In this document: in pieces, positions 3,004 to 44,092 of the stretch
Position numbering within the stretch: position 1 is the first letter of the stretch
How the letters are laid out: each line of letters opens with the position of its first letter
DNA from: Pontiellaceae bacterium B12219
GTDB taxonomy: Bacteria > Verrucomicrobiota > Kiritimatiellia > Kiritimatiellales > Pontiellaceae
DNA: 64,000 bases
NCBI GenBank assembly: GCA_029432795.1
Contig: JARNMJ010000002.1
Location: forward strand, 1-64,000
Direction of reading: 5' to 3'
Position numbers and translations under genes: made by a program
The notes under the pieces: model-generated
Database searches by the model: none
What the model was told of the DNA's origin: nothing
The model's input: the letters and a program-made list of their open reading frames with translations, nothing else

Positions 3004-4340
3004 CGAAAGACATTTCGAGCATCGCAAAAAATAACGTCCGCCGATTTATCCTGTTCCGGTTGCTGTTCAACGCGCGGTTTTACTATCCGGTTTTTGCGGT
3101 AATCTTTCTCGATTTCGGGATGATGCTGGATCAGTTTTCCATGCTGAATGCCATCTGGGCGGCCACCATTATTCTGGCGGAAGTTCCGTCCGGTGCGTTG
3201 TCGGATCTGATCGGGCGTAAAAAACTGCTGGTGCTGACATCGGGATTGATGGTGTGCGAAATGGCGGTCTGGGCCTTTGCCCCGCGCGGCAATCCCACGC
3301 TACTGTTCTGGCTGCTGGCCGCGAACCGGATTTTAAGCGGGCTGGGGGAGGCGGCGGCCAGCGGATCCGACGAAGCCCTGGTCTATGAAAGTCTTGAAGC
3401 TGCCGGAATGCAGAGTCAGTGGTCGCGCGTACTGGAGCTGGTTTCCAAATGGCAGTCGGTGGCGTTTATGTTTGCCATGATTACCGGCGGGCTGGTTTAT
3501 GACCCGACGCTGCTTTCCAGACTTACCGGACTGAATATCACAAAAGAAATTACACTCCGATTGCCGCTTTATCTGACTTTTATCACTTCAATTATCTGCT
3601 GGTTCAATTGCCTGGGGTTTCATGAAACCAGGAGCGAGCAGGGAGAGAATGATGCGCTTTCTGTGAAAGATGCCTTCAAACAGACCTTTAATGCCGGGAA
3701 ATGGATCCTGAAAACGCCGTTTGCGCTGGTCGTTATTTTGGCCGGTGCTTTTGCCGACAGTATTATCCGCATGTTTGTGACCTTGAACTCGGAATATTAC
3801 CGACTCATTCATTACCCCGAATTTGCGCTCGGGCTGATTGGGGCCGGTGTTGCGCTCATGAATTTCGGAATTGCTCCGCTTTCCCGGCGTTTAGTGGATC
3901 GGCACACCCCCGGTTTTGTTTTCGGGGTCGTGACGGCGCTCGGGTTGGCGGGCTTTTTCGGTGCATCCTTTTTTATTCCGTATATCGGGCTGTTGTTCAG
4001 CATCCTTTTGTTTGCGGCCTTTTCCATTACCACGTTTTCTCTGTCGTTTTATCTGAACCGGATTTCCGACAACTCCATTCGGGCTACTGTGCTCAGTTTT
4101 AAAGGCATGGCGCTGAATCTGGGCTATGGATTCATCGGAATTGTATATGCCGGATTATTACGGTATCTGACCCGCACCCGTTCCATAGAAGTCGGCTCGG
4201 ATGAGCTGTTCATTACGGGCACGCAATATTTCTGGCCCTATTTTCTGATTGGCGGAATCGGCGTGGCTCTGTTTGTTCGGGTATATTTTCCAGGGATCAA
4301 TCACTTCCAATCCCAGGAAAATACATTAAAGGGAAAGTAA
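3000..4340 (+). CDS. MFS transporter
   Basis: The 446-residue protein has about 12 hydrophobic segments and the loop-2/3 signature GALSDLIGRKKLLVL of the major facilitator superfamily, so it is an inner-membrane secondary transporter. Its start overlaps the stop of the antiporter frame (ATGA), which indicates translational coupling. The substrate cannot be read from the sequence. The extra region around residues 120-180 (alternating charged and amphipathic) is like that of MFS members of the multidrug or unknown-substrate groups. The C-terminus INHFQSQE is encoded by a degenerate copy of the 15-bp palindrome (4305-4319). Family confident, substrate unknown. Confidence 0.85.
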   Translation: MTKDISSIAKNNVRRFILFRLLFNARFYYPVFAVIFLDFGMMLDQFSMLNAIWAATIILAEVPSGALSDLIGRKKLLVLTSGLMVCEMAVWAFAPRGNPTLLFWLLAANRILSGLGEAAASGSDEALVYESLEAAGMQSQWSRVLELVSKWQSVAFMFAMITGGLVYDPTLLSRLTGLNITKEITLRLPLYLTFITSIICWFNCLGFHETRSEQGENDALSVKDAFKQTFNAGKWILKTPFALVVILAGAFADSIIRMFVTLNSEYYRLIHYPEFALGLIGAGVALMNFGIAPLSRRLVDRHTPGFVFGVVTALGLAGFFGASFFIPYIGLLFSILLFAAFSITTFSLSFYLNRISDNSIRATVLSFKGMALNLGYGFIGIVYAGLLRYLTRTRSIEVGSDELFITGTQYFWPYFLIGGIGVALFVRVYFPGINHFQSQENTLKGK

Positions 4341-18730: not shown

Positions 18731-20458
18731 ATGCGGGAATTTGCCACATTTGAAGAACGCCTGTCCGCCTGGACTACTGAAGCCATGAAGTCGGTATTTG
18801 ACCTTGGAGGCTGTGATGTGAACCTCGGGGTGTCTCCGACCAATAACGATAAATTCGGCGATTATCAATGCAATGCCGCCATGGTCCTTACCAAGCAGCT
18901 TGGTAAAGCGCCCCGGCAGATTGCGCAGGAGTTTGTTGATGCGGCACCGCTGCCTGACTTTGTCAGTAAAATTGATATTGCCGGTCCGGGCTTTATAAAT
19001 TTCCACCTGTCAAATGATGCGCTTGCGGCGCACATCCAGGCCCTGGAAAACGACCGGTATCTGGGTACGGAGCAGGTGGGAGAGGGGAAGAAGGTCATTA
19101 TCGACTATTCCAGCCCGAATGTTGCCAAATCGATGCATATTGGCCATATCCGCTCTACCGTCATTGGAAATGCCATTGACCGGCTGTACCGCTTTCTGGG
19201 TTATGATGTCATTGCAGACAATCATCTGGGCGACTGGGGAACACAGTTCGGTCTTATGCTGGTGGGATACCGGGAATTTGTGAATGAAGAAGCTCTGGCG
19301 GCTTCTCCGGTTGAAGAACTGGAACGTATTTACGTGGCCAGTTACAACAAATCGAAGGAAGACCCCACGTGGCGCGACCTCGCCAAAGCGGAGCTGGTTA
19401 AACTCCAGCAGGGTGATGCTGAAAATCGCGCGCTCTGGGAAAAATTCATCGAACTCTCCATCGGTGAGTTTAATAAAATTTATGATCGCCTGGATGTGAA
19501 GTTCGATCTCTATCGCGGCGAAAGTTTCTACAACGACCGGCTTCCTAAAATGATCCGGACCCTGGAAGAAAAAGGTTTGGCAAAGGAGAGCGACGGTGCG
19601 TTGATTGTGGATCTGGAAGAAGACGGCATGCCGATCTGCATTGTTCGGAAAAGCGATGGCGGCTTCAACTATGCCACGACCGATCTCGCAACGGTGGAAT
19701 CGCGAATTGAGGAGTTCGATCCCGACCGGATTATCTATGTAACCGACGAGCGCCAGCAGCTGCATTTCAGACAGTTTTTCACCATTGCAGAAAAGATCGG
19801 GTTAACCGCTAATCTGGTCCATGTCTGGTTTGGGCTGATGCGTCTGCCTGAGGCTACTTTTTCCACCCGTGAAGGGAATGTAATTAAGCTGGCAGCGTTG
19901 CTGGATGAAGCGGAATCCCGCGCTTTGGAAATGGTCAAATCCAGCAGTCCGGACATGCCTGAAGAGCAGCAGAAAGATCTGGCTAAGGCCATTGGAATTG
20001 GTGCGATTAAATATACTGATCTGAGTCAGAATCCGCAGAGTCTGGTGACGTTTACCTGGGAAAAAGCGCTCAATATGGAGGGGAATTCAGCCCCGTATCT
20101 ACAGTATGCATATGCCCGGATTTCTTCTGTTTATGATAAGTATCATGCTCAGTTTCCGGACTCCGACTTGAGTAAATGTTCATTAAAAATTGAACATGAA
20201 ATCGAGCGTCGGCTGGCCATAAAACTGTCCCGTTTCCCGGCAGCCGTTCAGGCTGCAGCCGATAATTACCGCCCGAATATCATGACCGATTACTTGTACG
20301 ATCTCGCACAGATCTACAGCAGTTTCTATCAGAATGTTCCGTTCCTGAAGGCCGAGGAAGGTGTTCGGGAGAGTCGGATTCGTCTCTGCAGATCAACTGC
20401 CAGAACGCTGAAGCAAGGTCTGAACCTGCTCGGAATTGAAACGCGCGAACGAATTTAA
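18731..20458 (+). CDS. argS: Arginyl-tRNA synthetase
   Basis: The 575-residue class I enzyme charges tRNA-Arg. It has an N-terminal Arg-tRNA-synt additional domain (residues 1-95), the HIGH signature in SPNVAKSMHIGHIRST (about 128-143), the family motif near FSTREGNVIKL, and the C-terminal DALR anticodon-binding domain ending in LRTL-like TARTLKQGLNLLGI. Length is typical. Followed by a strong terminator at the edge of a gene-free region. Confidence 0.96.
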   Translation: MREFATFEERLSAWTTEAMKSVFDLGGCDVNLGVSPTNNDKFGDYQCNAAMVLTKQLGKAPRQIAQEFVDAAPLPDFVSKIDIAGPGFINFHLSNDALAAHIQALENDRYLGTEQVGEGKKVIIDYSSPNVAKSMHIGHIRSTVIGNAIDRLYRFLGYDVIADNHLGDWGTQFGLMLVGYREFVNEEALAASPVEELERIYVASYNKSKEDPTWRDLAKAELVKLQQGDAENRALWEKFIELSIGEFNKIYDRLDVKFDLYRGESFYNDRLPKMIRTLEEKGLAKESDGALIVDLEEDGMPICIVRKSDGGFNYATTDLATVESRIEEFDPDRIIYVTDERQQLHFRQFFTIAEKIGLTANLVHVWFGLMRLPEATFSTREGNVIKLAALLDEAESRALEMVKSSSPDMPEEQQKDLAKAIGIGAIKYTDLSQNPQSLVTFTWEKALNMEGNSAPYLQYAYARISSVYDKYHAQFPDSDLSKCSLKIEHEIERRLAIKLSRFPAAVQAAADNYRPNIMTDYLYDLAQIYSSFYQNVPFLKAEEGVRESRIRLCRSTARTLKQGLNLLGIETRERI

Positions 20459-20484
20459 ATCAGCCCGGACGTTAAATATTTTAA

Positions 20485-20514
20485 CCGGTTGGACGAATGT
20501 CCAGCCGGTTTTTT
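20485..20514 (+). terminator. Intrinsic terminator after argS
   Basis: CCGGTTGGA and TCCAGCCGG form a nine-pair stem around a six-base loop, followed by six T residues. Confidence 0.88.
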
Positions 20515-20837: not shown

Positions 20838-20868
20838 TTATTCACAGTTATCCACATTTTTATCAACA
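20838..20868 (+). promoter_or_regulatory. Three DnaA-box-like 9-mers
   Basis: TTATTCACA (20838), TTATCCACA (20848) and TTATCAACA (20860) lie in the same orientation, spaced 10 and 12 bases. The second is the perfect E. coli consensus; the first fits TTATNCACA; the third differs at one position. The cluster ends 6 bases before the dif-like site. Such a cluster usually marks an origin, but position and strand bias here argue for the terminus. Confidence 0.6.
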
Positions 20869-20874
20869 TTCACT

Positions 20875-20902
20875 ACGTCGCATAATATATCTTATGTCTA
20901 TA
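20875..20902 (+). other. dif: dif-like XerC/XerD recombination site
   Basis: Left arm ACGTCGCATAA, 6-bp centre TATATC, right arm TTATGTCTATA. The left arm shares CGCATAA and the right arm TTATGT with E. coli dif, the best-known 28-bp chromosome dimer resolution site, and the 11-6-11 layout is the same. It lies in a 1.17-kb gene-free stretch where the G/C bias of the plus strand changes. No xer gene is in the window. Confidence 0.65.
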
Positions 20903-21685
20903 TATGGTTTGTAAATTACTCTATATGCGGTGGTTAAAGTTGGCTTCTCTGAAAATTGAATACCTGTTAAAGACGGTGTGTTTATCGGGATTCCGAATGA
21001 TCCGGCGGTCTGGTTTATTCATTATTTCAACGTTTTTTTTCGTCCTGATTATCAGCCACGGAGATTTCATCTTGTTGAGACTGCAGAATCTCATTTGAGT
21101 CCCGCTGTTAATCTGCCCGAGGCCGCAGTCGGGATTACGCGGGAGCTGAGCAGTTTCCGACATAGATTCCGGGATCCCGGCCGGCATCGAAAATCCGCCC
21201 CCGGTTCTTTTCAATTTCGTTCGTTGAGGCCGCAGTTCCGATGGCTGGACTTTTGTCGGCATTCTCTGGGTGATTGGACTGAATCTTCCCCCGCCCTGCA
21301 CCCTTATCAAATAGAGCGCTTTGATTTTGTCTGCGTTCGCCGGAGGCTTGCTTATGCGCGCGGGCACGATCTGGTTTGCATATAATGCATTTTCGGTATT
21401 TAGCGTAAGAAGCTGTTATTTATTTAACTTTCGAAGATTCCGACTTTAATACGAGTGCAGTTCTTTTTCAGCATGTCGTTGCTGGTGGTGAGCATTGAAT
21501 GTATGAGTTCCTGTAATTGTATAAATTCCGCATCGTATAAATCTATCCGTATGGCGGTTTTGCCCGAAAACGGAGGCGCGGAATTGAGAGGCGGTTTGTC
21601 TGGCAAAGCAACTCGTCTTTCGCTTTAGTCTTTTTCAGGTCTTAGTACAGGAAATGAATTCCACGCGGAGAATGACCGGAACTAC
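20903..21685. other. Gene-free region with stable hairpins
   Basis: No convincing gene: open frames on both strands overlap and look like unselected sequence, and a 60-codon minus frame (21424-21606) would start at TTG without a clear ribosome-binding site. Two neighbouring foldbacks are visible: GAGATT/AATCTC around 21061-21092, and CCCGA/TCGGG inside a longer CCCGC...GCGGG stem around 21101-21152. These could belong to a structured RNA, but I do not recognise a known family. Confidence 0.4.
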
Positions 21686-22942
21686 ATGAACACCATAGAT
21701 ACTGAATATTTTTTATATAGCTTACTTACGCTTTTTCTTGCCGGACTTTTGGCCACCGTTTTCACATCGCTTCGTCACACCGGAGACTCCGGGGTTTCAC
21801 GTCTTACCGACCGGGCCGGTCGCAAACTTAAACTGCTCAATTTCTGGGCACCGCGCTGGGATCTGTTGTGCAAGGCATCCCGGGTTGTCCTGACCAATTT
21901 AGCCATCGGAACTTTCATTCTTTTTTACTTCGCACTGCGGGGCGGAAATCTCGTTTTTACGGGATTGCTGCTCTTTGCCTTTTCGCTGCTTTATATGGTT
22001 GTTGCCCGGGTAATTCCTCATGTGCTTTCCGAGAGTTATGCCGATCGGATTTCACTGGCCGTACTTCCAATGGTTGGTGGTCTGACGCTGGTGCTTTATG
22101 TTTTTGTCTGGCCGCTCCAGTTTATTGAAGATCGTCTGCTTCGGCACGCCATGTCGACTTCCGACCAGGAAGACCGCCCATCCACCGAAGATGAAATTAA
22201 AAGCCTGATTGAGGGCACGGATGAAGAAGAACTGGAAAAGGAAGAACGCGAGATCATTCGCAGCGTGTTTGAGTTCGGCGAAACGGTTGCCCGCGAAATC
22301 ATGACTCCGAGAATTGATATCAGCGGTATCAAGGATACGCTGACGATTGAAGAATGCATTGAGCTGGTCAAAGAGTCGCGCCACTCCCGCTTTCCGGTTT
22401 ATCACGAAAACATCGATGATGTGGTCGGGTTGGTGCATGTGAAGGAGTTGCTGAAATTGATGGCCTCGAATGAGGGTAAAAATCCGATCAGTCAACTCGC
22501 CAAGAAAATTGAATATGTCCCGGAAACCATGCCTTTGAACGATCTGCTTCAGTTGATGAAAAAAAGCCGTTCGCAGATGGTTCTGGTGGTGGATGAATAC
22601 GGAGGAACGGAAGGCCTCGTGACAATGGAAGACGTCATCGAAGAGCTGGTGGGCGAAATTGAAGATGAATATGATCCCGCTGAAAATGAATTGAAGCGCC
22701 GTTCCGACGGATCACTGATGATTGAAGCGCGTATGCCGATGTATGAGCTCAATGAAATTATTGACCCCAAACTTCCCGAGAGCGATGAATACGATTCGCT
22801 GGGTGGTTATATCTTTTACATCCTGGGCCGGATTCCTGCGCCCGGCGAAAAGATTAACGTTCCTGGATATACGCTCAAAATCCACTCAGCGACTCAGCGT
22901 CAGATTCAGGTTGTCCATATGTCGCCCCTTAGCGACGTTTAA
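21686..22942 (+). CDS. CorC/HlyC-family membrane protein with CBS pair
   Basis: The 418-residue protein has an N-terminal CNNM/DUF21-type membrane domain with about three to four helices (segments near residues 10-30, 68-90, 95-115 and 130-150), then a CBS pair (about 205-320, MTPRIDISGI, VDEYGGTEGLVTMED) and a C-terminal CorC_HlyC domain ending near residue 415. Members of this group take part in Mg2+/Co2+ efflux or envelope homeostasis; many are annotated as hemolysin without evidence of haemolysis. The secreted-protein gene follows 24 bases later. Confidence 0.9.
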   Translation: MNTIDTEYFLYSLLTLFLAGLLATVFTSLRHTGDSGVSRLTDRAGRKLKLLNFWAPRWDLLCKASRVVLTNLAIGTFILFYFALRGGNLVFTGLLLFAFSLLYMVVARVIPHVLSESYADRISLAVLPMVGGLTLVLYVFVWPLQFIEDRLLRHAMSTSDQEDRPSTEDEIKSLIEGTDEEELEKEEREIIRSVFEFGETVAREIMTPRIDISGIKDTLTIEECIELVKESRHSRFPVYHENIDDVVGLVHVKELLKLMASNEGKNPISQLAKKIEYVPETMPLNDLLQLMKKSRSQMVLVVDEYGGTEGLVTMEDVIEELVGEIEDEYDPAENELKRRSDGSLMIEARMPMYELNEIIDPKLPESDEYDSLGGYIFYILGRIPAPGEKINVPGYTLKIHSATQRQIQVVHMSPLSDV

Positions 22943-31151: not shown

Positions 31152-33306
31152 ATGCGTACTCCTTCAAGCGCTCGGATAGCGTGGTAATCCGTTCGCGGGC
31201 ATCGGCGCGGGTGATGGCCAAATTAAGTGCCTTCTTGGTGCCCAGAATAATCACCAGTTTTTTAGCGCGGGTGAGGGCCGTATAAATCAGGCTGCGCTGC
31301 AGCAGCACAAAGTGCTGCGTATGCATTGGAATCACGACGCACGGATACTCACTGCCCTGACTTTTATGAATGGTAATTGCATAGGATAAAACCAATTCAT
31401 CCAATTCCCGAAAGTCATAAACGACCTTGCGACCGTCAAAATCCACCACCAGTTCCGACACTTCGGGGTTGATGGATAGAATGCGGCCGATGTCGCCGTT
31501 GTAGACATCCTTATCGTAGTCGTTCTCCGTCTGCATCACCTTATCGCCCGTGCGGTAGGTAATGCCGAAACGCTCCACTTCATCACCGCGAGGATTCAGG
31601 AGTCCCTGCATGGTCAGATTAAGGTTGCGCGCTCCGAGCTCCCCTTTCTGCATCGGGGTTAAAATCTGAATATCCTCCATCGGGTTAAAATGGAACTTTT
31701 TCGGCACCGATTCTTTAACCATTTTCCCGATCAGTTTCAGGGCCTTTTCCGGGTCGTCAGCTTCCACAAAATAACAATCGCTGTTTTCGCCTTCTTCCGG
31801 AAATTCCGGAGCTTTTCCCTGATTGATCAGATGGGCATTGGTGATAATCCGGCTGGAAGCCGCCTGACGAAATACCTCGTTCAAATGACCGACCGGCAGG
31901 GTTTTCGACTGAATGATATCCTGCAGCACGCGTCCCGGCCCCACCGAAGGAAGCTGATCCGAATCGCCGACAATCACAACCGCGGCATGCAGCGGAACTG
32001 CATCCATCAGCTGAGATGCCAGTACGACATCAATCATGCTCGATTCATCCACAATCAGCACATCGCACTGCAGCGGATTTTCAGCACCGTGAATAAAGCC
32101 GCCGGTTCCCGGATTAAACTGAAGCAGGCGATGGATGGTTTTGGCCTCCATACCGGTGGTTTCCGCCATTCGTTTGGCGGCACGCCCCGTCGGCGCACAA
32201 AGCTGAACCCGCATTTTCTTGGCTTTCAGCACCATCAGAACAGAATTAACCAGCGTCGTTTTTCCAACCCCTGGACCTCCGGTGATCACCATCACCTTCG
32301 ATTTTATGGCGGTCTTCAACGCATTACGCTGTGCCTGCGCCAGCTCAATGCCGGTTTTCTGCTGCACCCACTGAAGGGCTTTTTCAAAATCAATCGCCGG
32401 ACACGGATGCCGTCCTTTTTCCAGAGCCTGGAGTTTTTTGGCCAGTTCAATTTCGGCGAAGTATAACTTCGGCAGATAAATCAATTCCCGGCCTCTGAAG
32501 TCGGTCCGTTGAATCAGGCGTTTGTTTTCCAATCCGTAGTTTAAGGCTTCGTCGATAATATCCAGATCGATCTGCAGCAGCTCGGCGGTACGGGATAAAA
32601 GGTCGTTCCGAACATAGGCGCAATGGCCTCCGGCGGTGATTTCCCCCAGGCAGAATTCAAGTCCGGCCCGGGCACGCAGATCCGAGTCTTTGGCAATGCC
32701 GAGCTTCATCGCAATCTGATCAGCAATCAGAAAGCCGATGCCGCGAATATCGCGCGCCAGGCAATAGGGATCGCGCTGTACCATTTCAATGGCTTTGTCG
32801 CCATAGATTTTATGAATCCGGAAAGCACGGGTGGTACTGATGCCGTGGCTGAAGAGAAAGGACATAATCTTCCGGACATTTTTCTGTTCGTCCCAGGCTT
32901 TTTTAATGTTGTCTTTCCGGCCCTTGCCGATGCCTTCCACTTTCAACAGCTTGCCGGACGAATTTTCAATGACATCAAACACATCGCGGCCGAACGTCTG
33001 CACAAGGCGTTTTGCATATTCTTTGCCGATGCCTTTTACCATGCCGGACGCCAGATATTTTTCGATGCCTGCCAGCGTATCCGGTTGCGACATTCGCATG
33101 CCGCTGGCCTTAAACTGCTGGCCATGCCGCGGGTCGGTGAGCCATTCGCCGTCCGCCGCCAGCCATTCACCGGCATTCACGGTGGGCACGGTTCCGGTAA
33201 CCGTCACGAGCTCTTTATGCCCCCTGACTTTTACGCGTAAAACACAAAAGCCGTTTTCCTCGTTACGGAAAACGACCCGCTCAATCTGTCCGTCCAGCTT
33301 TTCCAT
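31150..33306 (-). CDS. recD2: RecD2-type 5'-3' DNA helicase
   Basis: The 718-residue SF1B helicase has an N-terminal OB/HhH-like region (residues 1-about 180, with VEGIGKGRKDNIKKAW), Walker A GGPGVGKTTLVNSV near 345, motif II VLIVDESSMID near 425, QLPSVGPG and the C-terminal motif ITIHKSQGSEYP. No RecB/RecC genes are nearby, and the N-terminal extension marks the RecD2 group, which acts alone in repair and replication. It ends at the shared terminator with glgP. Confidence 0.92.
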   Translation of the reverse strand: MEKLDGQIERVVFRNEENGFCVLRVKVRGHKELVTVTGTVPTVNAGEWLAADGEWLTDPRHGQQFKASGMRMSQPDTLAGIEKYLASGMVKGIGKEYAKRLVQTFGRDVFDVIENSSGKLLKVEGIGKGRKDNIKKAWDEQKNVRKIMSFLFSHGISTTRAFRIHKIYGDKAIEMVQRDPYCLARDIRGIGFLIADQIAMKLGIAKDSDLRARAGLEFCLGEITAGGHCAYVRNDLLSRTAELLQIDLDIIDEALNYGLENKRLIQRTDFRGRELIYLPKLYFAEIELAKKLQALEKGRHPCPAIDFEKALQWVQQKTGIELAQAQRNALKTAIKSKVMVITGGPGVGKTTLVNSVLMVLKAKKMRVQLCAPTGRAAKRMAETTGMEAKTIHRLLQFNPGTGGFIHGAENPLQCDVLIVDESSMIDVVLASQLMDAVPLHAAVVIVGDSDQLPSVGPGRVLQDIIQSKTLPVGHLNEVFRQAASSRIITNAHLINQGKAPEFPEEGENSDCYFVEADDPEKALKLIGKMVKESVPKKFHFNPMEDIQILTPMQKGELGARNLNLTMQGLLNPRGDEVERFGITYRTGDKVMQTENDYDKDVYNGDIGRILSINPEVSELVVDFDGRKVVYDFRELDELVLSYAITIHKSQGSEYPCVVIPMHTQHFVLLQRSLIYTALTRAKKLVIILGTKKALNLAITRADARERITTLSERLKEYA

Positions 33307-33800: not shown

Positions 33801-34901
33801 CTATTTCGCGGAAGGCAGCGAAAACTTTACCATCGCCTTCGTGCGCACATCAAAAATGCGTTCGATCTGCTGAGGAGCGGCTGCGCCATATCCGATTTTT
33901 GCATTCGGGTCGGCTGCATCGAGCATATAGCCCCGCTGCCCGTTAATCAGAACATACGGAACGCCGTCCAGTTCCTTATATCTCCCTCTGAACGTGGCCA
34001 TCGAAAAAACATGATCGGAGGTAAATCCCATAAAGGTGTTCACGCCCACCGATTCAAGCAGCGAGCAAAGCAGCACCGACTGGTCTTCACAATCTCCGCC
34101 GCCGGAAATCAGCGTATTCAAGGGATCTTTGGCATATTCTTTTCCATCATCCGGATCAGAGACATAGAAGATGTCATTACTGACAAAATTCAACAGGATA
34201 AGGGCTTTTTGCAGGTCATCATCTCCGGCACCTCGGACCTTCCGAACCGCGAGCATATTCAATTGTTCATCGCGATAATCAACCTTGTTCAGGTACCCCA
34301 TATAATTCCCGGCAATCAGCGTGTTCGCAACATCCTCAATCGGCTGGATTTGAAAGATTGTCCGGCCGCATTTCCCGAGCGTATCCAGAAAGCTCATTTG
34401 TCCCGATACCGCCGCATTCCAATTCGCAACGGTCACGGAAATAAAGGTCAGTGCCAGAAAAGCCATTAAAATCTGAATAATGGTTTTGCGGAAAACGACC
34501 AGCAAAAGGGAAAGACTTCCGAAAATAATCATCGTCGCAATTTTATAGTCTTCGACGTTACGGGCCACGACGCGCAGTCCCATCAGAACAACAAGGCCCG
34601 TGAAAAATGAAATCAGATACCACTTAACGGTATATTTCGAATGCTTGCGCGGTAAGGTGCCTTTATTTAAAAGCGCGGTTGTGAACAGCATGATTCCCAG
34701 CAGTGCCGCAGTGCCGCCGATAATTTTCAAGGACAGCGACGGCCAGAACAGATACGTACAGGCGCAGAAAATAAACAGGTAGAGCGTCAGAACCGTAAAA
34801 GAAATGCGTTCATCACCATTCAGCGAACGCATTTCTCCCGGTTTCCAGTGTTTGGAAACCGGCTCCTCCATAACGTCTGCCTCTTGATTGTGTCCGGCCA
34901 T
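33801..34901 (-). CDS. Membrane-bound transglutaminase-like protein
   Basis: The 366-residue protein has about four to five membrane helices in its first 155 residues and a transglutaminase/protease-like domain after residue 200. The catalytic triad is visible: Cys in GGGDCEDQSVLL, His in TSDHVFSMA, Asp in YMLDAADPN. The active domain likely faces the periplasm; substrate unknown. ATG 34901 is chosen because it forms TAATG with the stop of the upstream DUF523 gene and gives the sensible N-terminus. SKHWKP is encoded by a palindrome copy. Confidence 0.82.
   Translation of the reverse strand: MAGHNQEADVMEEPVSKHWKPGEMRSLNGDERISFTVLTLYLFIFCACTYLFWPSLSLKIIGGTAALLGIMLFTTALLNKGTLPRKHSKYTVKWYLISFFTGLVVLMGLRVVARNVEDYKIATMIIFGSLSLLLVVFRKTIIQILMAFLALTFISVTVANWNAAVSGQMSFLDTLGKCGRTIFQIQPIEDVANTLIAGNYMGYLNKVDYRDEQLNMLAVRKVRGAGDDDLQKALILLNFVSNDIFYVSDPDDGKEYAKDPLNTLISGGGDCEDQSVLLCSLLESVGVNTFMGFTSDHVFSMATFRGRYKELDGVPYVLINGQRGYMLDAADPNAKIGYGAAAPQQIERIFDVRTKAMVKFSLPSAK
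34843..34857. repeat. 15-bp palindrome TTCCA-GTGTT-TGGAA
   Basis: Exact copy, symmetric over 21 bp (34840-34860, GGT and ACC flanks), read as SKHWK at the N-terminus of the transglutaminase-like protein, before its first helix. Confidence 0.8.
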
Positions 34902-35851
34902 TAAAAAACCTGATTCCGCAAACACAGCTCAACGGGATGCGGCTGCAGATAATATTGCTGTCCCAGATAAGGTTCCTGATATTTCCGGATATAGTGGTTG
35001 ATCAGGGTGACCGGAACGATCAAAGGAAAGTTTTCCTGTTTATACGTTTCGATGGTTTCAACCAGCTCCTGTTTTTCATCCGCATCCAGCTGTTTTTTAA
35101 AATAGCCCGCCAGATGCTGCAGTACGTTGACGTGTTTCTTCACCGTCGCCCGCAACCGCAGTGCATCCATCAGTTTTTTCAAATAGTCCGTCTGAAGCGC
35201 TGGCAGTTTTTTACCCTTCATATCCGAAACAATACGCCCAAGTTCCCGGTAATGAGGAATGCTGTGAGACATAATCAGATATTTATGACGCTCATGAAAT
35301 TTAACCAATCCACTGCGGGTATTGTCTTCCTCCAGCATTTCGCGCCAGCGTTTAAGGGTGAAAACCCGCTCAATAAAACTTTCCCGCAGTGCCGGATCGT
35401 GGAGCCGCCCCTCTTCCTCCACCGGCAGCAACGGAAATTTGTTCATAAAGGCATTTGCAAAAAGACCGCGTCCGTTGTTCGAGGGCATCCCGTTTTCAGC
35501 ATAAACCTTAACGCGTTCCATGCCGCTGCTCGGCGATTTACTCTTAAAAATGAAGCCGCCCAGATTTTCCTGTTCCAACCCGTTCAGCCGTTTTTCGCAC
35601 CAGGCCAGCATCGGCTCCGTTAAATCCCGGCGCGTTTTATTCGTCATCAGGCGCGGATGCTCCGGGTCGCCCTCCAGCCGCATCGATTCGCGGGGAACGC
35701 CAAGCCCCAGCTCAAACTCCGGACAGACCGGCACAAACTCGAACCAGCGCCCCAATGTTCCGGTAACATAGCTGTCGTGTTTATGCTGTCCGTCATAACG
35801 GACTTTCTCGCCCATCAGACAGGAACTCACACCGATTCTGATTTTATCCAT
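34901..35851 (-). CDS. DUF523 (TudS-like) - DUF1722 fusion protein
   Basis: The 316-residue protein has an N-terminal DUF523 domain (residues about 3-150: GVSSCLMGEKVRYDG, VPVCPEFELGLG, SKSPSSG) with the three cysteines expected to bind an Fe-S cluster, as in the thiouracil desulfidase TudS. The C-terminal DUF1722 domain (about 190-310) contains FHERHKYLIMSHS and NHYIRKY, as in E. coli YbgA. Fusion of the two is common. Desulfuration of thiolated bases is inferred from TudS only. Overlaps its neighbours at both ends. Confidence 0.88.
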   Translation of the reverse strand: MDKIRIGVSSCLMGEKVRYDGQHKHDSYVTGTLGRWFEFVPVCPEFELGLGVPRESMRLEGDPEHPRLMTNKTRRDLTEPMLAWCEKRLNGLEQENLGGFIFKSKSPSSGMERVKVYAENGMPSNNGRGLFANAFMNKFPLLPVEEEGRLHDPALRESFIERVFTLKRWREMLEEDNTRSGLVKFHERHKYLIMSHSIPHYRELGRIVSDMKGKKLPALQTDYLKKLMDALRLRATVKKHVNVLQHLAGYFKKQLDADEKQELVETIETYKQENFPLIVPVTLINHYIRKYQEPYLGQQYYLQPHPVELCLRNQVF

Positions 35852-36786
35852 TAAAAATCTCCCAGCAGTTTGATTTCACGTTCCAGCTTAAATCCGAATT
35901 TTTCCTCAACCGCATTCACCATTTTTTCCGTCAGCAGATAAACGTCCGTGGCCCTGGCGTCCGGTTCGGCAATAATGATATTGGCGTGCTTTTCAAAAAG
36001 GCGCGCCCCGCCCACCTTGAAATCTTTAGCCCCGGCCTCTTCCAGAAACCACCCCGCCGCCTGCCGCCGCTCGGCCGCCGATGTCGGTTCCACATTCCGG
36101 AAAACGCTGCCCGCACAGGGGTTGATTTTCCAGTCCGGGTGTTTAGTACGGCGCAGTTCCAGAATACGCTCCCGCTCCTGCCGCATCATTGAAACATCGC
36201 AACGTTTCAAAACCAGATCAGCCTCCAGCACAATTGCCCCATTTGTCTTCAATGCCGACGAACGATACGCAAATGCCAGCTCATCCGCCTGCACGCGGGT
36301 CACAACGCCCTTGGCATCCATCAGCCGCACCGATGTCACCACATCGCCGATCTGCTGTCCAAAGGCCCCTGCATTGCCGGCAATCGCACCGCCAACCGTG
36401 CCGGGTATCCCACTGCAAAAAGAAAGATCTCCGATGCCCTGCTCAATCGCGAGTCGCGCCAGCTCATCGAGCAGCGTATTCCCGGAAACCCGAACGCGCG
36501 GCCCATCAAATTCCACCACCGGATGTTCTTCGGCACAATAGCGCAGAATAACGCATTCCAGCCCCCGGTCCGATACCAGCAGATTGGACCCCTGCCCGAT
36601 CACCATATACGGCACCGAATGCTGCACGAGCAATGCAGCCGAAGCCGCCAGGGTTTCAGCATCGGGACAATGAATCAGCGCCGGGCACGGTCCGCCCAGC
36701 TGAAAGGTGGTATAGCTCCGCATTTCGGGCGACCGAATCACTTCGGCCGCGGCGGGCAGTTCTTCAAAAAGGCGATCATCAAGCAT
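35851..36786 (-). CDS. murB: UDP-N-acetylenolpyruvoylglucosamine reductase
   Basis: The 311-residue flavoenzyme reduces the enolpyruvyl group in UDP-MurNAc synthesis. FAD-binding PCMH features are visible: TTFQLGGPCPALI near residue 26, VIGQGSNLLVSDRG near 63, CSGIPGTVGGAIAGNAGAFGQ near 123, YRSSALK near 170 and GSVFRN with the catalytic serine near 225. C-terminal EREIKLLG is typical. Its stop overlaps the downstream start, so murB leads a three-gene operon. Confidence 0.95.
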   Translation of the reverse strand: MLDDRLFEELPAAAEVIRSPEMRSYTTFQLGGPCPALIHCPDAETLAASAALLVQHSVPYMVIGQGSNLLVSDRGLECVILRYCAEEHPVVEFDGPRVRVSGNTLLDELARLAIEQGIGDLSFCSGIPGTVGGAIAGNAGAFGQQIGDVVTSVRLMDAKGVVTRVQADELAFAYRSSALKTNGAIVLEADLVLKRCDVSMMRQERERILELRRTKHPDWKINPCAGSVFRNVEPTSAAERRQAAGWFLEEAGAKDFKVGGARLFEKHANIIIAEPDARATDVYLLTEKMVNAVEEKFGFKLEREIKLLGDF

Positions 36787-36849
36787 GGTTTCTTCCGCAA
36801 AATTCTCGCCAATCTAATCGCCCCTCAGCTAATTTCCAAGCATTGGACG

Positions 36850-37482
36850 ATGAAGATATTGATTTACAGTTTAATTCTGCTTGCAGGCAGCCCGGCATTT
36901 GCCGTGCTCTCCAATATCACCTTTGTGGCGTTTGATGTTGAAACCACGGGGTTTAGCCCCGCCTACGAGCGCATTATCGAAATCGGAGCTGTGAAATATC
37001 GGAACGGAAAAATCATCGATTCCACCCACTGGCTGGTGAATCCCGGCCGCCCGATCTTCAACAGCGAAATTCACGGCATCACCGATGAACAGGTTATCGG
37101 CCACCCCGGCTTTGCGGATACCTACAGAGCGTTCAGCGCCTTTGCCGGCGATTCCGTCCTGATTGCCCACAATGCCTCGTTTGATGTCCGCTTTATGGCC
37201 GCTGAAATTGAGCGAAACGGGCTCATCCCCCTGCCCAACCCGACAATCAATTCACTCACCCTCTTTCGGCGTTGGTTTCCCGATGCCGAATCGCACCGGC
37301 TCGGGCCGTTGGCCGAACAGCTCCGCATTCCGGTCAATGTCGAACACCGGGCCGAAGACGACTCCAAAACCCTTTTACTGATACTGGACCGGGGCCTCAA
37401 AGCCCGTCCGGATCTTACGCTGGCCCAGATGGCCGAAACCGCCAACGGCACCTACTGTTTTGATGGAACCCGAAAACCATGA
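36850..37482 (+). CDS. DEDDh 3'-5' exonuclease with a signal peptide
   Basis: The 210-residue protein has an ordinary DnaQ-like core: FDVETTG near residue 30 (Asp, Glu), HNASFDVRFM (Asp) and the closing His/Asp in VEHRAEDDSKTLL. Unusually it begins MKILIYSLILLAGSPAFAVLS, which looks like a Sec signal cut after AFA, so the nuclease may be exported. ATG 36850 is the only start that keeps the core without a long unrelated extension; no Shine-Dalgarno is seen, and a degenerate palindrome (36834-36848) touches it. The next gene overlaps by ATGA. Confidence 0.82.
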   Translation: MKILIYSLILLAGSPAFAVLSNITFVAFDVETTGFSPAYERIIEIGAVKYRNGKIIDSTHWLVNPGRPIFNSEIHGITDEQVIGHPGFADTYRAFSAFAGDSVLIAHNASFDVRFMAAEIERNGLIPLPNPTINSLTLFRRWFPDAESHRLGPLAEQLRIPVNVEHRAEDDSKTLLLILDRGLKARPDLTLAQMAETANGTYCFDGTRKP

Positions 37483-38246
37483 TGCGCGAAATCACCTCCA
37501 CCACCAATCCGCAGATCAAACACCTGCGCGCCCTCTCCTCCTCCAAAAAAGCCCGGCAGGAATCCGGCACCTTCATCATCGAAGGCTGGCGCGGCATTCA
37601 AACCCTGCTCGAACACAGCAGCCCCTACTGCAAAATCGAACAGCTCGTCATTTCCAGGGATTGGAAGAAACCCCTGCCGAAAAGCATCGATACCCTCGTT
37701 CTGCCCGAACACGTCTTTGAAAAAATTTCCGATGTCCGGAACGCACAGGGCATCCTCGCCGTCGTTTCGCCCATCGAAATGAAACACGCGCTGCCGGCCA
37801 CCGGAAAATTTCTGTTGCTCGACAACCTGCGCGATCCCGGCAACCTCGGCACGCTCATCCGCTCCGCCGTCGGTTCCGGTTTCGACGGCGTCCTGCTCTA
37901 CGGCGACTGCGTCGAGCCCCACAACCCCAAAGTCATCCGCTCCACCATGGGCACCTTCGCCTTTTCCAAAGTCTGGAACATCACGCCGCCCGAACTTTTC
38001 CAGGCCCTGGAAAACGGATTCGAACTCTGCGTCACCACCGGACTCGACGGAGAAAACCTCTACAAAACCACCTTCAGCGAAAAAACCATCCTCGTCATCG
38101 GCTCCGAAGCCCACGGTGTTTCCGAGGAATTATTCGAACGCGCCGCAAAAAAAATAACCATTCCCCTGCAGCCCGAATGCGAATCCCTCAACGCCGCCGT
38201 CGCTGGCAGCATCTGCATGTTTCACATGCAGAACGGACATCACTAA
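37479..38246 (+). CDS. TrmH/SpoU-family RNA 2'-O-methyltransferase
   Basis: The 255-residue protein begins with a substrate-binding domain (residues 1-90: NPQIKHLRALSSSKKARQESG, FIIEGWRGI) followed by the SPOUT knot: LLLDNLRDPGNLGTLIRSA near 112, VIGSEAHGVSEEL near 206, and IPLQPECESLNAAVAGSI near 228. It should methylate rRNA or tRNA; target not predictable. Two exact palindromes encode SRDWKK (37652) and FQALE (37998). It ends tail-to-tail with hsdR, overlapping 4 bases. Confidence 0.92.
   Translation: MMREITSTTNPQIKHLRALSSSKKARQESGTFIIEGWRGIQTLLEHSSPYCKIEQLVISRDWKKPLPKSIDTLVLPEHVFEKISDVRNAQGILAVVSPIEMKHALPATGKFLLLDNLRDPGNLGTLIRSAVGSGFDGVLLYGDCVEPHNPKVIRSTMGTFAFSKVWNITPPELFQALENGFELCVTTGLDGENLYKTTFSEKTILVIGSEAHGVSEELFERAAKKITIPLQPECESLNAAVAGSICMFHMQNGHH
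37652..37666. repeat. 15-bp palindrome TTCCA-GGGAT-TGGAA
   Basis: Exact copy in the SpoU gene, read as SRDWK between the substrate-binding and catalytic domains. Confidence 0.75.
37998..38012. repeat. 15-bp palindrome TTCCA-GGCCC-TGGAA
   Basis: Exact copy, palindromic over 19 bp (37996-38014), read as F-Q-A-L-E. Confidence 0.75.
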
Positions 38247-41200
38247 ATCGCCACGCGGCCGTTGAGCTGGTCGATCCGCTTCACAATTTCCTGCGCCACA
38301 TCAATCCGACCCTCAAATAGATCAATCAGCGAGCCGTGCCGCGTGAACGGGTGTTCGTTCAGCGTGCTCTTCTCCAGATAACCGTTCGCCACAATATGCC
38401 GCACAATGCGCTGCACAAACTCCAGCTGATGGCTGTCGAGCGACTGATCGTTAATGAATTCCGAAAAGAGCGCATTCGCCGCCGTCTGATCCAGTCCCAC
38501 CAATCCCGCCACCAGTTTCAGCAGCGGTTCGTCGCCGAACGCCTTGCGATAATCGTCCTCACTGCCCAGCTCATCCCAAAGCACATGCTCCAGATGTTTG
38601 CAGTCGTGCGGCGTTAGTTCCTTATTAAACCGCAGCTTATGCACCACCAGATCATTTTCATAATCCTGCAGATAGGCATCCACCTTTTTGCGATAACTGT
38701 GAAATTCGCCCGATCCATATTCGCCTTCATGCTCCGCCCAACCCAGTACCTCATCTTCAAACGAAGTGTAATAAATCGCGCAGCGCCAGCCGTACGCGTT
38801 CATAATCGAAGGTGTCCGCCGCCTTCCAGAAGGCATCCGTCTGCACCTCCGCAATCAGTTCCGCCTGCTGTTTCACCTGCGGCAGATTGCCGATCTTCTG
38901 CAGGTTTTCAGCCGTCGTCTGCACCTTCATGCGCGGTCTGGAAACCGGCTCGCCGCGCAACGCGGCATATTCAATCGTATACATCAGATAATCGAACCGC
39001 TTCGCCAGTTCTTCATCCTCAATCGCCGGCACCAGCGGCGCAATCTGCCGTTCCAGTTCGCGCAGCATTTCATCCGAAATCGTCTGCCAGCGTTTTTTCT
39101 GATTATACCGATGGATAAACTCAATCCGCATCCGGCTGTAAAACCGCGATTCATCAATCTCGCAAACCGCCGCGTGCAATGCATCCACCAGGCTGGTGCG
39201 ATACGCGGCCAAGGCGTCCGTCTGATGGTCGGCATGCTGCAGCTCCTGCGCAATACGCGCCCGGATGTTAAACAGATTTTCCGAAAGCGACTTCACCGCC
39301 TTCGCCTCTTTCCCGTTTTTATTTGCGCGGAAATACTCGAAGTTGCCGCAATAGTCGAAAATCACAAATGCTTCTTTATCCTGCCCGCCGCCGAACAGGT
39401 TTTCACATAAACGCGTGCCCCGCCCGATCATCTGCCAGAACTTCGCCTTCGACCGCACCCGCTTGAAAAAGACCAGATTCACCAGCTCCGGAATATCAAT
39501 CCCCGTATCCAGCATATCCACCGAAATCGCAATCCGCGGATTTTTCTCCTTCTCGCCCAGATCTTCGATCACCCCGTCGACATACTTAATGCCGTTATAA
39601 ATGCAGGCGGCCTGACCGGGATATTCCGGAAAGAGCGTGTTGAACCGCCGCAGAATAAATTCCGCATGTTTCGTGTTCGCCGCGAAAATGATCGTCTTGC
39701 CAATCCGATCGCCGCCGCGCACCTTGATGCCCTTTTCCATTAAATCCTGCAGCACCCGGTCGACCGTATTATCGTTAAACAGGAATTTATTCAGCTCCTC
39801 GCTCGAAACCTCCGTCACCTCTTCGTCAAAGGTCTCCTCCCAATGCTCCTGCTCCTCCGGCGAAAGCTCATCGTAATGAATGCCCTGCTCCAAAAACTTC
39901 AACGACGTCTCCACGCTCCGGTACGGCACCAGATGCCCTTCATCAATCGCCTCGCCCAGCTCATAGGCAAACGTCGGCACATCGTCTTCAATATCGAAAA
40001 TGGAATACGTGTTTTTGTCGATGTCGCTTTTCGGCGTCGCCGTCAGCCCCAGCAGATAGCTGTCGAAATACGTAAAAATGTCCTGATATTTTTTATAGAT
40101 CGACCGATGCGACTCATCCACGATCACCAAGTCAAAATGGCCGCAGGTAAACAGCGGCGATCCATCCTTGCGCTTCGTCGAATCAATCGCATTCATCATC
40201 GTCGGATAGGTGCTGAAAATCATCCGCGACAACGGGTTGTTGTCCTTGTCGTCCGTCTTTTCCAGCAGATTGCACATGCTCAGATTCGGCAGCAGCGCCG
40301 CAAAATTCTTCTTCGCCTGCTTCACCAGTTCCCGTCGGTCGGCCAGAAACAGAATATTTTTAATCCAGCCGTGGCGCTGCAGCACCTCCACCAGCGAAAT
40401 CGCCGTGCGCGTTTTGCCCGATCCCGTCGCCATCACCAGCAACGACTTGCGCTGCCCCTTCTGCAGATTATCGCACACCGCCTGAATCGCCTTTTTCTGA
40501 TAGACCCGCCCCGCAATTTCATCCCGCGGACTCACGCCCTTCAGCGACGTGCGATGCTGCTTCTGGAAATTATAGGCATCCAGTTCATCCTTCGTAAAAA
40601 AGCCGAATACCGTGCGCTCATTGGCCTGCTCGTCATCGTGGAAATACGTTGTAAACCCGTTCGTTGTATACATCAGCGGGCGCACGCCATGCTTGCGTTC
40701 CAGACCATCCGCATACAGCTTTGCCTGCACCTTGCCCACCTGCGGATCCACCGACGTACGCTTCGCCTCCACCACCGCCAGCGGATCGCCGTTGTCGGCA
40801 TAAAGCACATAATCCGCAAACCCCTTGCCCGACGGATTCGGCATGCCCGCCACCTCCACCTCTTCCAGGCAGTTGGTGCCGATTTCCCAGCCCGCCATTT
40901 TCAGCGCGTGGTCGATGTAAATCTTGCGCGTCTTAAACTCGCTGATGTCGTCGCAATCAAACGCCTCATGCGGGGTTTCCCGCACCGTCGCAAAAGCCGC
41001 ACGCTCCTGCGCACTCCGTAATTCATTTTTCAGTGCGTCCCGCTCCGCCGCCCAGGCCGCCTCCTTTTGCTCTAGCGCCTTCTGCATCGCCAGCGTCCGC
41101 TTTTCCAACGCCGCCCCGTCCGGCAGCAGCGCCGCGTCAAACACCACCCGATGGCTCGCCTTCGCGTAAGTGAACGCCAGCCAGCGCACAAAATCATACA

Positions 41201-41540
41201 GATTTTTCAGCGACAGCTCCGTCTCATCGCGCCGCATGCTTTTCGCCGTATGCGCCGCCATATTTCCCAGCGAAACCACAAACTTAATGCGCGGAAAAAG
41301 CCGCGAATCGATCAGCCGCTTAAATTGAACATCGTGGATCAGCGACGACAGATTATCCTGATACGGCACCGTCAGCCCCTTGTCGTAGCGATACATCCAC
41401 TTCACCGCCACCTCCAGCGCCCGGCGCGACTGCAGCGCGCACGTCGCGTTCGACACCGCAATCGACGCCTCCGCCTCCGCGCACACCGCCCGCACCGCAT
41501 CGAAATAGGGATAGGCCTTCAGAAAATCAAATTGGCTCAT
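38243..41540 (-). pseudogene. hsdR: Type I restriction endonuclease HsdR (EcoEI type), frameshifted near the C-terminus
   Basis: The main frame (38757-41540) gives 927 residues: N-terminal HsdR domain, helicase motor with VMATGSGKTRTAISL near 370, DESHRSIYKKY near 480 and IGRGTRLCE near 708. It stops at LRDLLHFV, then the rest (YYTSFEDEVLGW to QLNGRVAI) continues in another frame to 38243. The junction is near 38775-38790, where a small out-of-frame deletion is likely since linker residues seem missing. The last about 180 residues support subunit assembly, so cutting activity may be lost. Last gene of the hsd operon. Confidence 0.85.
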
Positions 41541-41546
41541 TGCGCT

Positions 41547-42467
41547 TCACCCTTCCTGTTCTCTCTCGTCATGGCGAGAGTCTGCTTCACAAAACCGTTC
41601 CACCCAACTATTTGCCTGTTCGCAACTGGCACGCGTGGCCTCGGGCTCTTCAAAGGCCGAAAGCCACAATGCGCGCCCTTCCAAAAACGCATCCGTCCAA
41701 TCCCTGGAAATCGTTTTCGGCAGCGCCATCGGCATCACCCAGATGAGCCGCGCCGACCCCGCCCGCAGCGTATCCCGGCACGCCCGCTCGCCCGGCGAAA
41801 AAAACGTACTGCACACCACGCCCGGAAAATCCGATATCTCCCGCTGCAGTGCCCGGACTTCCGCTTCCGAACTTTTCCGCGAAACCCGCAATGCCCGCCG
41901 GGGTCTCACCTTCAGCAACTCCGTATTTCCCACAAACCGGCTCTGCTTGATCCGCCCGCGCGACACGCCCTTCAGCGCCCACCGCCGCGGATTCGCCCGG
42001 ACATACGCCTCCCGAATCTCCAGCACCTCCGGCTCAAAACAAATCACATCCCAATAATTCGGGGCCCACACCTGCTCTTTCCCGCCATGGCTCTGCCCTT
42101 GCTCGCCATGGCGAGCTCCTGCAACAAGCCCGCCTTTTCTCGCCAACCGCGTCACACTGCCTTTGAACATGTTCAACACCTCGCCCAGCCCGGCGCCGCC
42201 CGCCGAACAGATGCGCACAATACCGTGAAAATGGTTCGGCATCAGCTGCCACGCGCCCAGTTCAATGTGCGCATAGTGCGCCGGAATCTCCGTCCAGCAC
42301 TGTTCCACCAGCGACCCCAGCGCATTCGGAACCATTTTCACGCCATCTATTCGACCGAACAGCATCCTGTGATAATCCGCGCACATCGTCACGAAGTACC
42401 AGCCCGGCTGCGAATAATCCCGCCCGTCCATCCGAAGCTTCTGCGACATGCTTTTCTTAAATTCCAT
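41547..42467 (-). CDS. REP-associated tyrosine transposase (RAYT) with C-terminal extension
   Basis: The first half of this 306-residue protein is a Y1_Tnp HUH domain: QPGWYFVTMCADYHRMLFG near residue 25, then WQLMPNHFHGIV near 75, the His-hydrophobic-His metal site, and a helix after GEVLNMFKGSV that should bear the nicking Tyr. RAYTs of this type process REP hairpins and are normally single copy. The second half (from about 190; FSPGERACRDTLRAG, IWVMP) looks like a separate Rossmann/SLOG-like domain, tentatively. ATG 42467 has GGAG 4 bases upstream. It sits inside the hsd operon with tight spacing, and its own DNA has small CTCGCCATGGCGAG-type hairpins. Confidence 0.8.
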   Translation of the reverse strand: MEFKKSMSQKLRMDGRDYSQPGWYFVTMCADYHRMLFGRIDGVKMVPNALGSLVEQCWTEIPAHYAHIELGAWQLMPNHFHGIVRICSAGGAGLGEVLNMFKGSVTRLARKGGLVAGARHGEQGQSHGGKEQVWAPNYWDVICFEPEVLEIREAYVRANPRRWALKGVSRGRIKQSRFVGNTELLKVRPRRALRVSRKSSEAEVRALQREISDFPGVVCSTFFSPGERACRDTLRAGSARLIWVMPMALPKTISRDWTDAFLEGRALWLSAFEEPEATRASCEQANSWVERFCEADSRHDEREQEG

Positions 42468-42494
42468 CGGTCTCCACAAACTTGCTCTTCTTCG

Positions 42495-42767
42495 CTAAAG
42501 CGAGATATCTCCTCGAAACGCGGCCTGCATCAGCGCCGCAAACAAACCCTCCTTTTGAACTGTCAAGGAATCCTTGACAGTTGCCCCTTCCGGCAATTCC
42601 CCCTCTTTCAGGATGTTATTGATATGCAGGCTGATATTTTGTTTGGTCGACGCAAAAAGTTCGGCCATTTCCAGCTGCGTCAGCCAAACCGAGCCCTCCT
42701 CCGCACGAAGTCGAAGTTCGGTATGCCCATCGGCACTGTGATAAAGAATCAACTCATTGCTCATCAT
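42495..42767 (-). pseudogene. RhuM N-terminus fused to an HsdS tail
   Basis: The 90-residue frame begins like RhuM/virulence-type proteins often placed in type I R-M loci: SVWLTQLEMAELFASTKQNISLHI, with ATVKDSLTVQKEG to residue 74. It then switches to LFAALMQAAFRGDISL, which matches the end of the neighbouring HsdS (LFAALNQRAFRGEL). The match is also clear in DNA (about 40 bases at 42503-42545 against 42935-42980). I infer a recombination that deleted most of rhuM and of a second hsdS. GAGGAA precedes the ATG, so the fusion may still be translated. Confidence 0.75.
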
Positions 42768-42794
42768 GTTTCCTCGCTATGCGGACGCGCGGAC

Positions 42795-42920
42795 GGCTGG
42801 GACAGCCAGCCCTACCTTTTGCCATTCAAGATTCAGGTTTGCCGCTTCGCTGCCGTCGCCTTGCGCCAACCTCACTTCGTGTCCTATTTCAAGTTTCACA
42901 TTTCCGGTTTCAGGTTTCAT
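42795..42920. repeat. Hairpin repeat and TTTCA-rich repeat between rhuM fragment and hsdS
   Basis: GGCTGGGACAGCCAGCC (42795-42811) folds on itself. Further on, TTTCAAGTTTCACATTTCC and GGTTTCAGGTTTCATCC (about 42885-42920) repeat a short TTTCA unit. Both types are common non-genic fillers in PVC-type genomes by general recollection. Confidence 0.5.
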
Positions 42921-42922
42921 CC

Positions 42923-44092
42923 CTAAAGTTCCCCTCGAAACGCGCGTTGGTTCAGCGCCGCAAATAAATCCTCCTGCTCCGACAACGAGGCCGACATCGC
43001 CGTTTTCTGCGCTTCAATCGCCGTAACCCGCTCCGCAAATTCCTGTTGGAGGGTGATGGGGGGAATATTAATTTCGATCTTCTTGAGTTCTTCTGCATTA
43101 ATATTCGCCATCCCAACAATGCTTTTTGCCTTATTCAGCAATACAGATTTTCCATGTTTGGAATTCAAATAAGCAGAAATATATTCAGGATCAGCCCTTT
43201 CATTAACAATTAACTTCACCAAATAACCTGCATAAGCCATCGGAGTTTCTTCTCGATAAACTGCGGTTTTTCCAACGAGTTCTTTACTGTTTGTCCTGTT
43301 GAAAAGTATTTCGCCTTTATGTACCAAATACTTCTCTTTTTCTTTTGCATCAAAATCTACGAATTTCAGACTTCGGAAATCCCATCCTCCTATATAGGTA
43401 ATGTTATTCATTCTTAAAATTGGATACTCGCCATCTGTTTCATGCGCTTTCTTGCTTGTTCCATATTGAGTTTTAACAGCCAAATCTTTGATCATTCCTT
43501 CCTCCCACCCCATGGGGTTGGTGACGGGGTCGCCGAACATGTCGTAGAAGAGGCTTTGGACGAGCTGGTCCATCAGGGCGATTTGCTGCTTGCGCTGATC
43601 GATTAACGCCTGCGCCGCATCCAGGATCGCCACAATCCGCCGCTGCTCCTCCATCGGCGGCAGGGGGATTTCATGCTTCCAAAATTCTTTCATTGTTAAA
43701 CGTGGCATTTTCGCGCCAGCAACAGCATTAGAAGCCCAAGAGACGAATTGTTTTGAGCGCAAATAGTGAACCAGAAACCATTTATTCAACTTTTCTGGAT
43801 TAGGTTTTAATGGAACCAATTCACTGGTTGCACATGCAAACTCATCAGGAACAACCACCTTGTTTAAATAAGGTCGTAATTTCGAATAAAGCACATTTTC
43901 TTCATCCACAAAATTAGTAGATGAAGATGCATCGGAAATTTGAATATATTGACGTTTCGAAATTTTTCCAGTGTCTGCTTCCACCTGATCCAAGGTTAAA
44001 TTCCAAATATGGGAAGAATCGGGACACTCTCGTTTTGACGGGCTCGCAGGACACACTTCCCCCAACGTCACCATTTTCCAACCCGGTTTCAT
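42923..44092 (-). CDS. hsdS: Type I restriction-modification specificity subunit HsdS
   Basis: The 389-residue subunit chooses the DNA target for the HsdMS complex. It shows two half-sites: TRD1 (residues about 1-165) followed by the conserved helix HEIPLPPMEEQRRIVAILDAAQALIDQRKQQ (cut into two pieces here: HEIPLPPMEEQRRIV and AILDAAQ), and TRD2 (about 195-345) followed by INIPPITLQQEFAERV and the coiled tail. ATG 44092 is preferred to 44107 because GGAG lies 7 bases upstream. The last codons are repeated in the rhuM fusion downstream. Confidence 0.92.
   Translation of the reverse strand: MKPGWKMVTLGEVCPASPSKRECPDSSHIWNLTLDQVEADTGKISKRQYIQISDASSSTNFVDEENVLYSKLRPYLNKVVVPDEFACATSELVPLKPNPEKLNKWFLVHYLRSKQFVSWASNAVAGAKMPRLTMKEFWKHEIPLPPMEEQRRIVAILDAAQALIDQRKQQIALMDQLVQSLFYDMFGDPVTNPMGWEEGMIKDLAVKTQYGTSKKAHETDGEYPILRMNNITYIGGWDFRSLKFVDFDAKEKEKYLVHKGEILFNRTNSKELVGKTAVYREETPMAYAGYLVKLIVNERADPEYISAYLNSKHGKSVLLNKAKSIVGMANINAEELKKIEINIPPITLQQEFAERVTAIEAQKTAMSASLSEQEDLFAALNQRAFRGEL

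Follow-up and report, generated by a model that had tools for sequence, protein, structure and literature searches.

The window, the whole stretch of DNA analysed here, comprises 64,000 nucleotides from Pontiellaceae bacterium B12219, which is related to Pontiella. It lies at the beginning of a 199-kb contig in a fragmented assembly (4.75 Mb, 273 contigs). The region of interest lies between an arginyl-tRNA synthetase gene, which we take to be argS from its sequence, and a gene encoding a CorC/GldE-like CBS-domain membrane protein (Table). The gap from the argS stop codon to the next start codon spans 1.2 kb and is the longest in the list of open reading frames, in agreement with the first-pass annotation. 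The gene argS is the upstream neighbour of the site described below in most members of the genus, as seen from tblastn matches in the corresponding loci of relatives. The gap had also been described as flanked by a strong terminator. A hairpin is indeed present downstream of argS, but such structures are equally frequent in shuffled sequences (one found, 2.0 expected). A conserved small open reading frame over the site was considered and rejected, as the tblastn matches follow the conserved boxes, the site itself or the beginning of the next gene, and do so in several frames. A structured RNA was rejected as well, the only Rfam matches in the window being two tRNAs.

Table. Features of the argS-downstream region (positions in the window)
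Feature	Position	Strand	Remarks
argS, arginyl-tRNA synthetase	18731..20458	+	upstream neighbour of dif
terminator-like hairpin	20483..20510	+	3' of argS
DnaA-box-like 9-mer 1 TTATTCACA	20838..20846	+	position -37, conserved in genus
DnaA-box-like 9-mer 2 TTATCCACA	20848..20856	+	position -27; identical to E. coli consensus box
DnaA-box-like 9-mer 3 TTATCAACA	20860..20868	+	position -15; 3-bp gap to box 2
dif core	20875..20902	+	arms (near-)invariant in relatives, centre variable; one copy per genome; at skew maximum
XerC arm ACGTCGCATAA	20875-20885		part of dif
dif central 6 bp TATATC	20886-20891		
XerD arm TTATGTCTATA	20892-20902		part of dif
NrdR-box-like dyad ACTCTATATGCGGTGG	20918..20933	.	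centre 50.5 bases after first dif base; XerD side
CorC/GldE-like CBS-domain membrane protein	21686..22942	+	downstream neighbour; scores below curated cut-offs

The 28-bp sequence ACGTCGCATAATATATCTTATGTCTATA at 20875-20902 is almost certainly the chromosomal dif site. The letters ACGTCGCATAA-TATATC-TTATGTCTATA are found exactly where the first-pass annotation had placed them. They form two Xer arms of 11 bp each, separated by a 6-bp centre, and contain the CGCATAA and TTATGT cores. The site has no second match in the 4.75-Mb assembly and thus is single-copy.

The intergenic DNA around dif was compared by BLAST with 40 relatives, and matched all 21 good-quality genomes among them. Outside the genus the shared part narrows to positions 20875-20900 of the window. 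In another family many members carry these 26 bases at 100% identity, as does one genome of a further family of the class, and they normally occur once per genome. A scan of the phylum, allowing at most three mismatches, found the dif pattern in 218 of 388 genomes (116 of 199 genera), while a reversed control pattern had almost no matches. Chance is thus far from sufficient to account for the sequence. The same site is present in relatives, one of the checks that the first-pass annotation had proposed. Most of the mismatches are in the 6-bp centre, which reads TATATC, TATATA, TATATG, TACATA or TGTATA. A variable centre between conserved arms is expected if the recombinases read the arms. There is one copy in most relatives, and one per genome within the genus, whose members are Pontiellaceae isolates and Kiritimatiellales MAGs. 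The consensus for Kiritimatiellia is ACGTCGCATAA-nnnnnn-TTATGTCTAnT, which is useful for locating termini in uncultured genomes.

Some members of the phylum have more sites. The 2.9-Mb genome G279 carries 30 dif-like sites, among them those at position 3736 of L313 and positions 3514 and 3649 of L314. The latter two are inverted, about 135 bp apart, and resemble a small dif-ended module. Several dif-like sites also occur in G330 (7), G355 (6) and G085 (4). The genomes G225, G242 and G345 of family f55 (L315, L316, L317) have dif on two contigs each; both contigs exceed 2 Mb in G225 and G242. This suggests two chromosomes in these genomes.

The claim that the site marks the replication terminus is supported by the relatives, by the position of dnaA, by GC skew and by the Xer and FtsK genes. 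Two relatives are assembled in one contig. In G024 (4,107,983 bp) dif is at about 1,233,070 and dnaA at 3,338,689; in G028 (3,882,676 bp) the positions are 3,359,412 and 1,386,935, respectively. The separation is 51% of the circle in both. In both genomes GC skew is positive before dif and negative after it, the skew being computed from sampled stretches. The cumulative skew has its maximum at 1,239,833 in G024, 6.8 kb from dif, and at 3,360,303 in G028, 0.9 kb from dif. In the first 124 kb of the contig that contains the window there is a local maximum at 31,329, 10.4 kb from dif. Thus the predicted skew peak does lie near the site. From 34000 to 44000 of the window the GC skew is strongly negative, at about -0.2, in a block that partly has higher GC content and is unlike its surroundings.

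The recombination machinery that had been proposed as a check is present. XerD scores above the curated cut-off in all nine genomes considered. The second recombinase has XerC as its best model, with 307 bits, under the XerC cut-off of 335, and is best described as XerC-like. FtsK-gamma is encoded in seven of seven genomes. The XerD gene (G000:C196:103296-104165) is located on the same contig as dif, 82 kb away.

The first-pass annotation missed a conserved element flanking the site, consisting of three DnaA-box-like repeats and a dyad. When 20 genus members are anchored at dif, conservation extends over positions -37 to -6 and +44 to +60, against a background of 0.02 bits. The three 9-mers are arranged head-to-tail on the XerC side, starting 37, 27 and 15 bp before dif. 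The second is the most conserved, TTATNNACA being matched in 15 of the 20 genomes. E. coli DnaA binds mainly pairs of boxes with gaps of 2 or 3 bp (PMC11317965). Boxes 2 and 3, on the same strand and 3 bp apart, have this spacing, whereas the 1-bp gap between boxes 1 and 2 is outside it. A weaker conserved patch at +86 to +96 has the word CACTAnGATAA in many members of the genus and class, and is weak in the window itself.

Of 113 genomes from 42 families, 61 have TTATNNACA at most 100 bp from dif (here and below, family counts of flank elements are raw, without adjustment for tree shape), as compared to 2 of 113 for control stretches of equal size 200-300 bp away. The word ranks first among 139 letter permutations, with 92 hits; the next has 20, and the mean is 4.4. 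As the 9-mer was first noticed at dif, the permutation control and the co-occurrence at dnaA outweigh the raw enrichment. The position and strand of the boxes are family-specific. They are on the left in the genus, abut the XerC arm in f18 and f19, and are on the right of dif in f2, f4, f5, f6, f11, f50 and f51. In 20 of the 42 families no box was found within 100 bp of dif, and E. coli MG1655 has none within 120 bp of the site; thus the boxes are dispensable for dif function in general.

Five genomes were searched for two 9-mers spaced by 1-4 bp. Tandem TTATNNACA pairs were found only at dif (G000, G005, G024) or just upstream of dnaA (G005, G021, G024); G028 had none. The dnaA promoters of most genus members contain CTGTTAATAACTTGTCAATAAG or a close variant, which is the same double box reversed. 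In a sublineage (G004, G011, G012, G014) the repeats at dif are TTACTAACA-like. Despite this, the three of these genomes with a readable dnaA promoter (G011, G012, G014) have kept TTAT boxes before dnaA. G028 has TTGT in the boxes before dnaA and TTAT in those at dif. The DNA-binding domain of DnaA in the genus reads RNHATI (L022 and other dnaA loci) where that of E. coli has GRDHTT.

The dyad on the XerD side was scored with a matrix that derives from 30 boxes in front of ribonucleotide reductase genes and dnaA, and from none at dif. This matrix recovers the NrdR consensus ACACAATATATTGTGT. The dyad in the window is a 16-bp palindromic box of 6.9 bits, the 99.9th background percentile being 5.4, and it is present in 15 of 20 genus members. 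The position +50.5 from dif is the best one for the matrix in 46 of 113 genomes; the score there exceeds the 99.9th background percentile in 48% and the 99.99th in 34.5%. The dyad occurs at this fixed position in 21 of 42 families. NrdR is encoded in ten of ten genomes. However, NrdR is reported to require two boxes and not to bind a single one (PMC12051234). No convincing second box was found beside the dif dyad with either of the spacers of NrdR operators, 14-17 bp or 24-27 bp. The best partner position, 41 bp away centre to centre (+91.5), is marginal and rarely above background. The dif core itself was rejected as the second box, as it has a weak score and its centre is 36 bp from that of the dyad, where NrdR accepts 30-33 bp or 40-43 bp. 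The dnaA promoters of the genus (L022 and others) contain a pair of NrdR boxes 31 bp apart, which suggests that dnaA in the genus is controlled by the dNTP level.

Similar arrangements exist outside the phylum. When 84,980 species were searched for CGCATAAn6TTATGT with TTATNCACA a short way to its left, 57 stretches were obtained, a sample selected for the left box, so that only the right side is unbiased. In a Halieaceae block TTATCCACA lies directly against the XerC arm; to the right, where no selection was made, (A/T)(T/C)CCACA is found at +49 in 11 of 17 cases. When all loci from outside Kiritimatiellota are taken together, boxes on the right number 2.2 per kb close to dif and 0.28 per kb further out. 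The stretches also include cases from SAR86, Alteromonadales and Erysipelotrichaceae. The dif-adjacent box array is found in many families and apparently has arisen more than once.

Among known systems the closest is dif of E. coli, with the same 11-6-11 layout, cores and position at the terminus, and the same set of XerD, XerC-like protein and FtsK-gamma. It differs in the end of the XerD arm, which is TAAAT in E. coli and CTAAT or CTATA here, and in the conserved flanks here, which contain DnaA-box repeats and a dyad. The dif sites of Verrucomicrobia have been predicted in Opitutus, Akkermansia and Methylacidiphilum; no Kiritimatiellia are among the Verrucomicrobia named in that study, and DnaA is not mentioned (Kono et al. 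2011, PMC3025954). In the plasmid sites cer and psi, too, metabolic regulators (ArgR, ArcA, PepA) bind beside an Xer core and shape the reaction (PMC5357621). These sites are plasmid-borne, have about 180 bp of accessory DNA and use other proteins, and an accessory role of the flanks here is only a proposal. As the cer and psi repressors act as architectural partners of Xer, such a role is plausible. The DnaA double boxes of E. coli, including those of datA and DARS, are likewise head-to-tail 9-mers with a 3-bp gap, but none adjoining dif are described in the literature searched. The dyad shares the 16-bp palindrome ACACnATATnTnGTGT with NrdR operators, as in the promoters of ribonucleotide reductase genes and dnaA of the same genomes; it differs in being single. 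A search for DnaA boxes beside dif, NrdR together with dif, and dif in Kiritimatiellota returned nothing pertinent among open-access papers, most subscription journals being outside its scope.

The data are probably best explained by an ordinary XerCD/FtsK dif inside a conserved element to which DnaA would bind. XerC and XerD would bind the two 11-bp arms, and FtsK-gamma would activate them at division, so that chromosome dimers are resolved; homology and position support this function. The site lies within a conserved element of approximately 100 bp, with candidate DnaA boxes on the XerC side and the NrdR-box-like dyad on the XerD side. DnaA most likely binds the boxes, given their identity to the consensus, the double-box spacing, and the restriction of other tandem copies to dnaA in the genomes searched. 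What DnaA might do at the terminus is speculative. It could be an accessory or timing factor that shapes the Xer complex, or the boxes could be a late-replicating DnaA-binding locus. A role in titration or recycling of DnaA is about as plausible as the accessory one.

One alternative is a plain dif whose repeats are bound by some factor other than DnaA, either as extra sites of the Xer-arm type or as sites of a terminus protein with DnaA-box-like specificity. The repeats at dif diverge from the boxes at dnaA in the sublineage and in G028, share the TTAT core with both Xer arms, and have fixed positions relative to dif within a family. However, the same tandem 9-mers occur only at dnaA and dif in the five genomes searched, and their distance and orientation vary between families, which does not fit a part of an Xer synapse. 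On balance we consider this alternative unlikely. Somewhat doubtful is the possibility that the boxes are a DnaA-control locus for titration, inactivation or reactivation, similar to datA or DARS, that merely happens to be at the terminus and is separate from dimer resolution. The double-box layout is that of DARS2 and other DnaA-bound sites of E. coli (PMC11317965), and a dyad resembling the site of a dNTP repressor is located alongside, as in the dnaA promoter. On the other hand, the boxes are tied to dif at base-pair resolution, with fixed offsets in the genus and abutment on the XerC arm in Halieaceae, and are closer to dif than location at the terminus would require.

Xer-using mobile elements are known, and some members of the phylum carry many dif-like sites. 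Hence the flanks could be remnants of an element that had inserted at dif through Xer recombination. This is very improbable, as there is one site per genome in the genus and no second attachment site, and as the flank, next to the same gene argS, is conserved between species. Finally, with its three DnaA boxes and the AT-rich DNA that comes after them in the usual orientation, the stretch resembles a replication origin with its unwinding region. This reading was rejected as practically negligible, since the cumulative GC skew has its maximum here, not its minimum, and dnaA is at the opposite pole, with its own double box just upstream in most genus members.

Returning to the dif site with putative DnaA binding at its flank, it is conceivable, though we hold it only tentatively, that Kiritimatiellia, and independently of them Halieaceae and other groups, have composite dif sites where DnaA is placed beside XerCD, in Kiritimatiellia together with an NrdR-type dNTP-sensing repressor. 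If so, both kinds of boxes found upstream of dnaA would also mark the terminus, and the state of the initiator and the supply of dNTPs would be linked to dimer resolution or to the end of the cell cycle. In the usual view dif consists of its 28 bp alone and is activated by FtsK. DnaA starts replication at the end of the chromosome opposite to the terminus. An array of DnaA boxes at a base-pair distance from dif would suggest that initiator and terminus are connected in a way not suspected so far.
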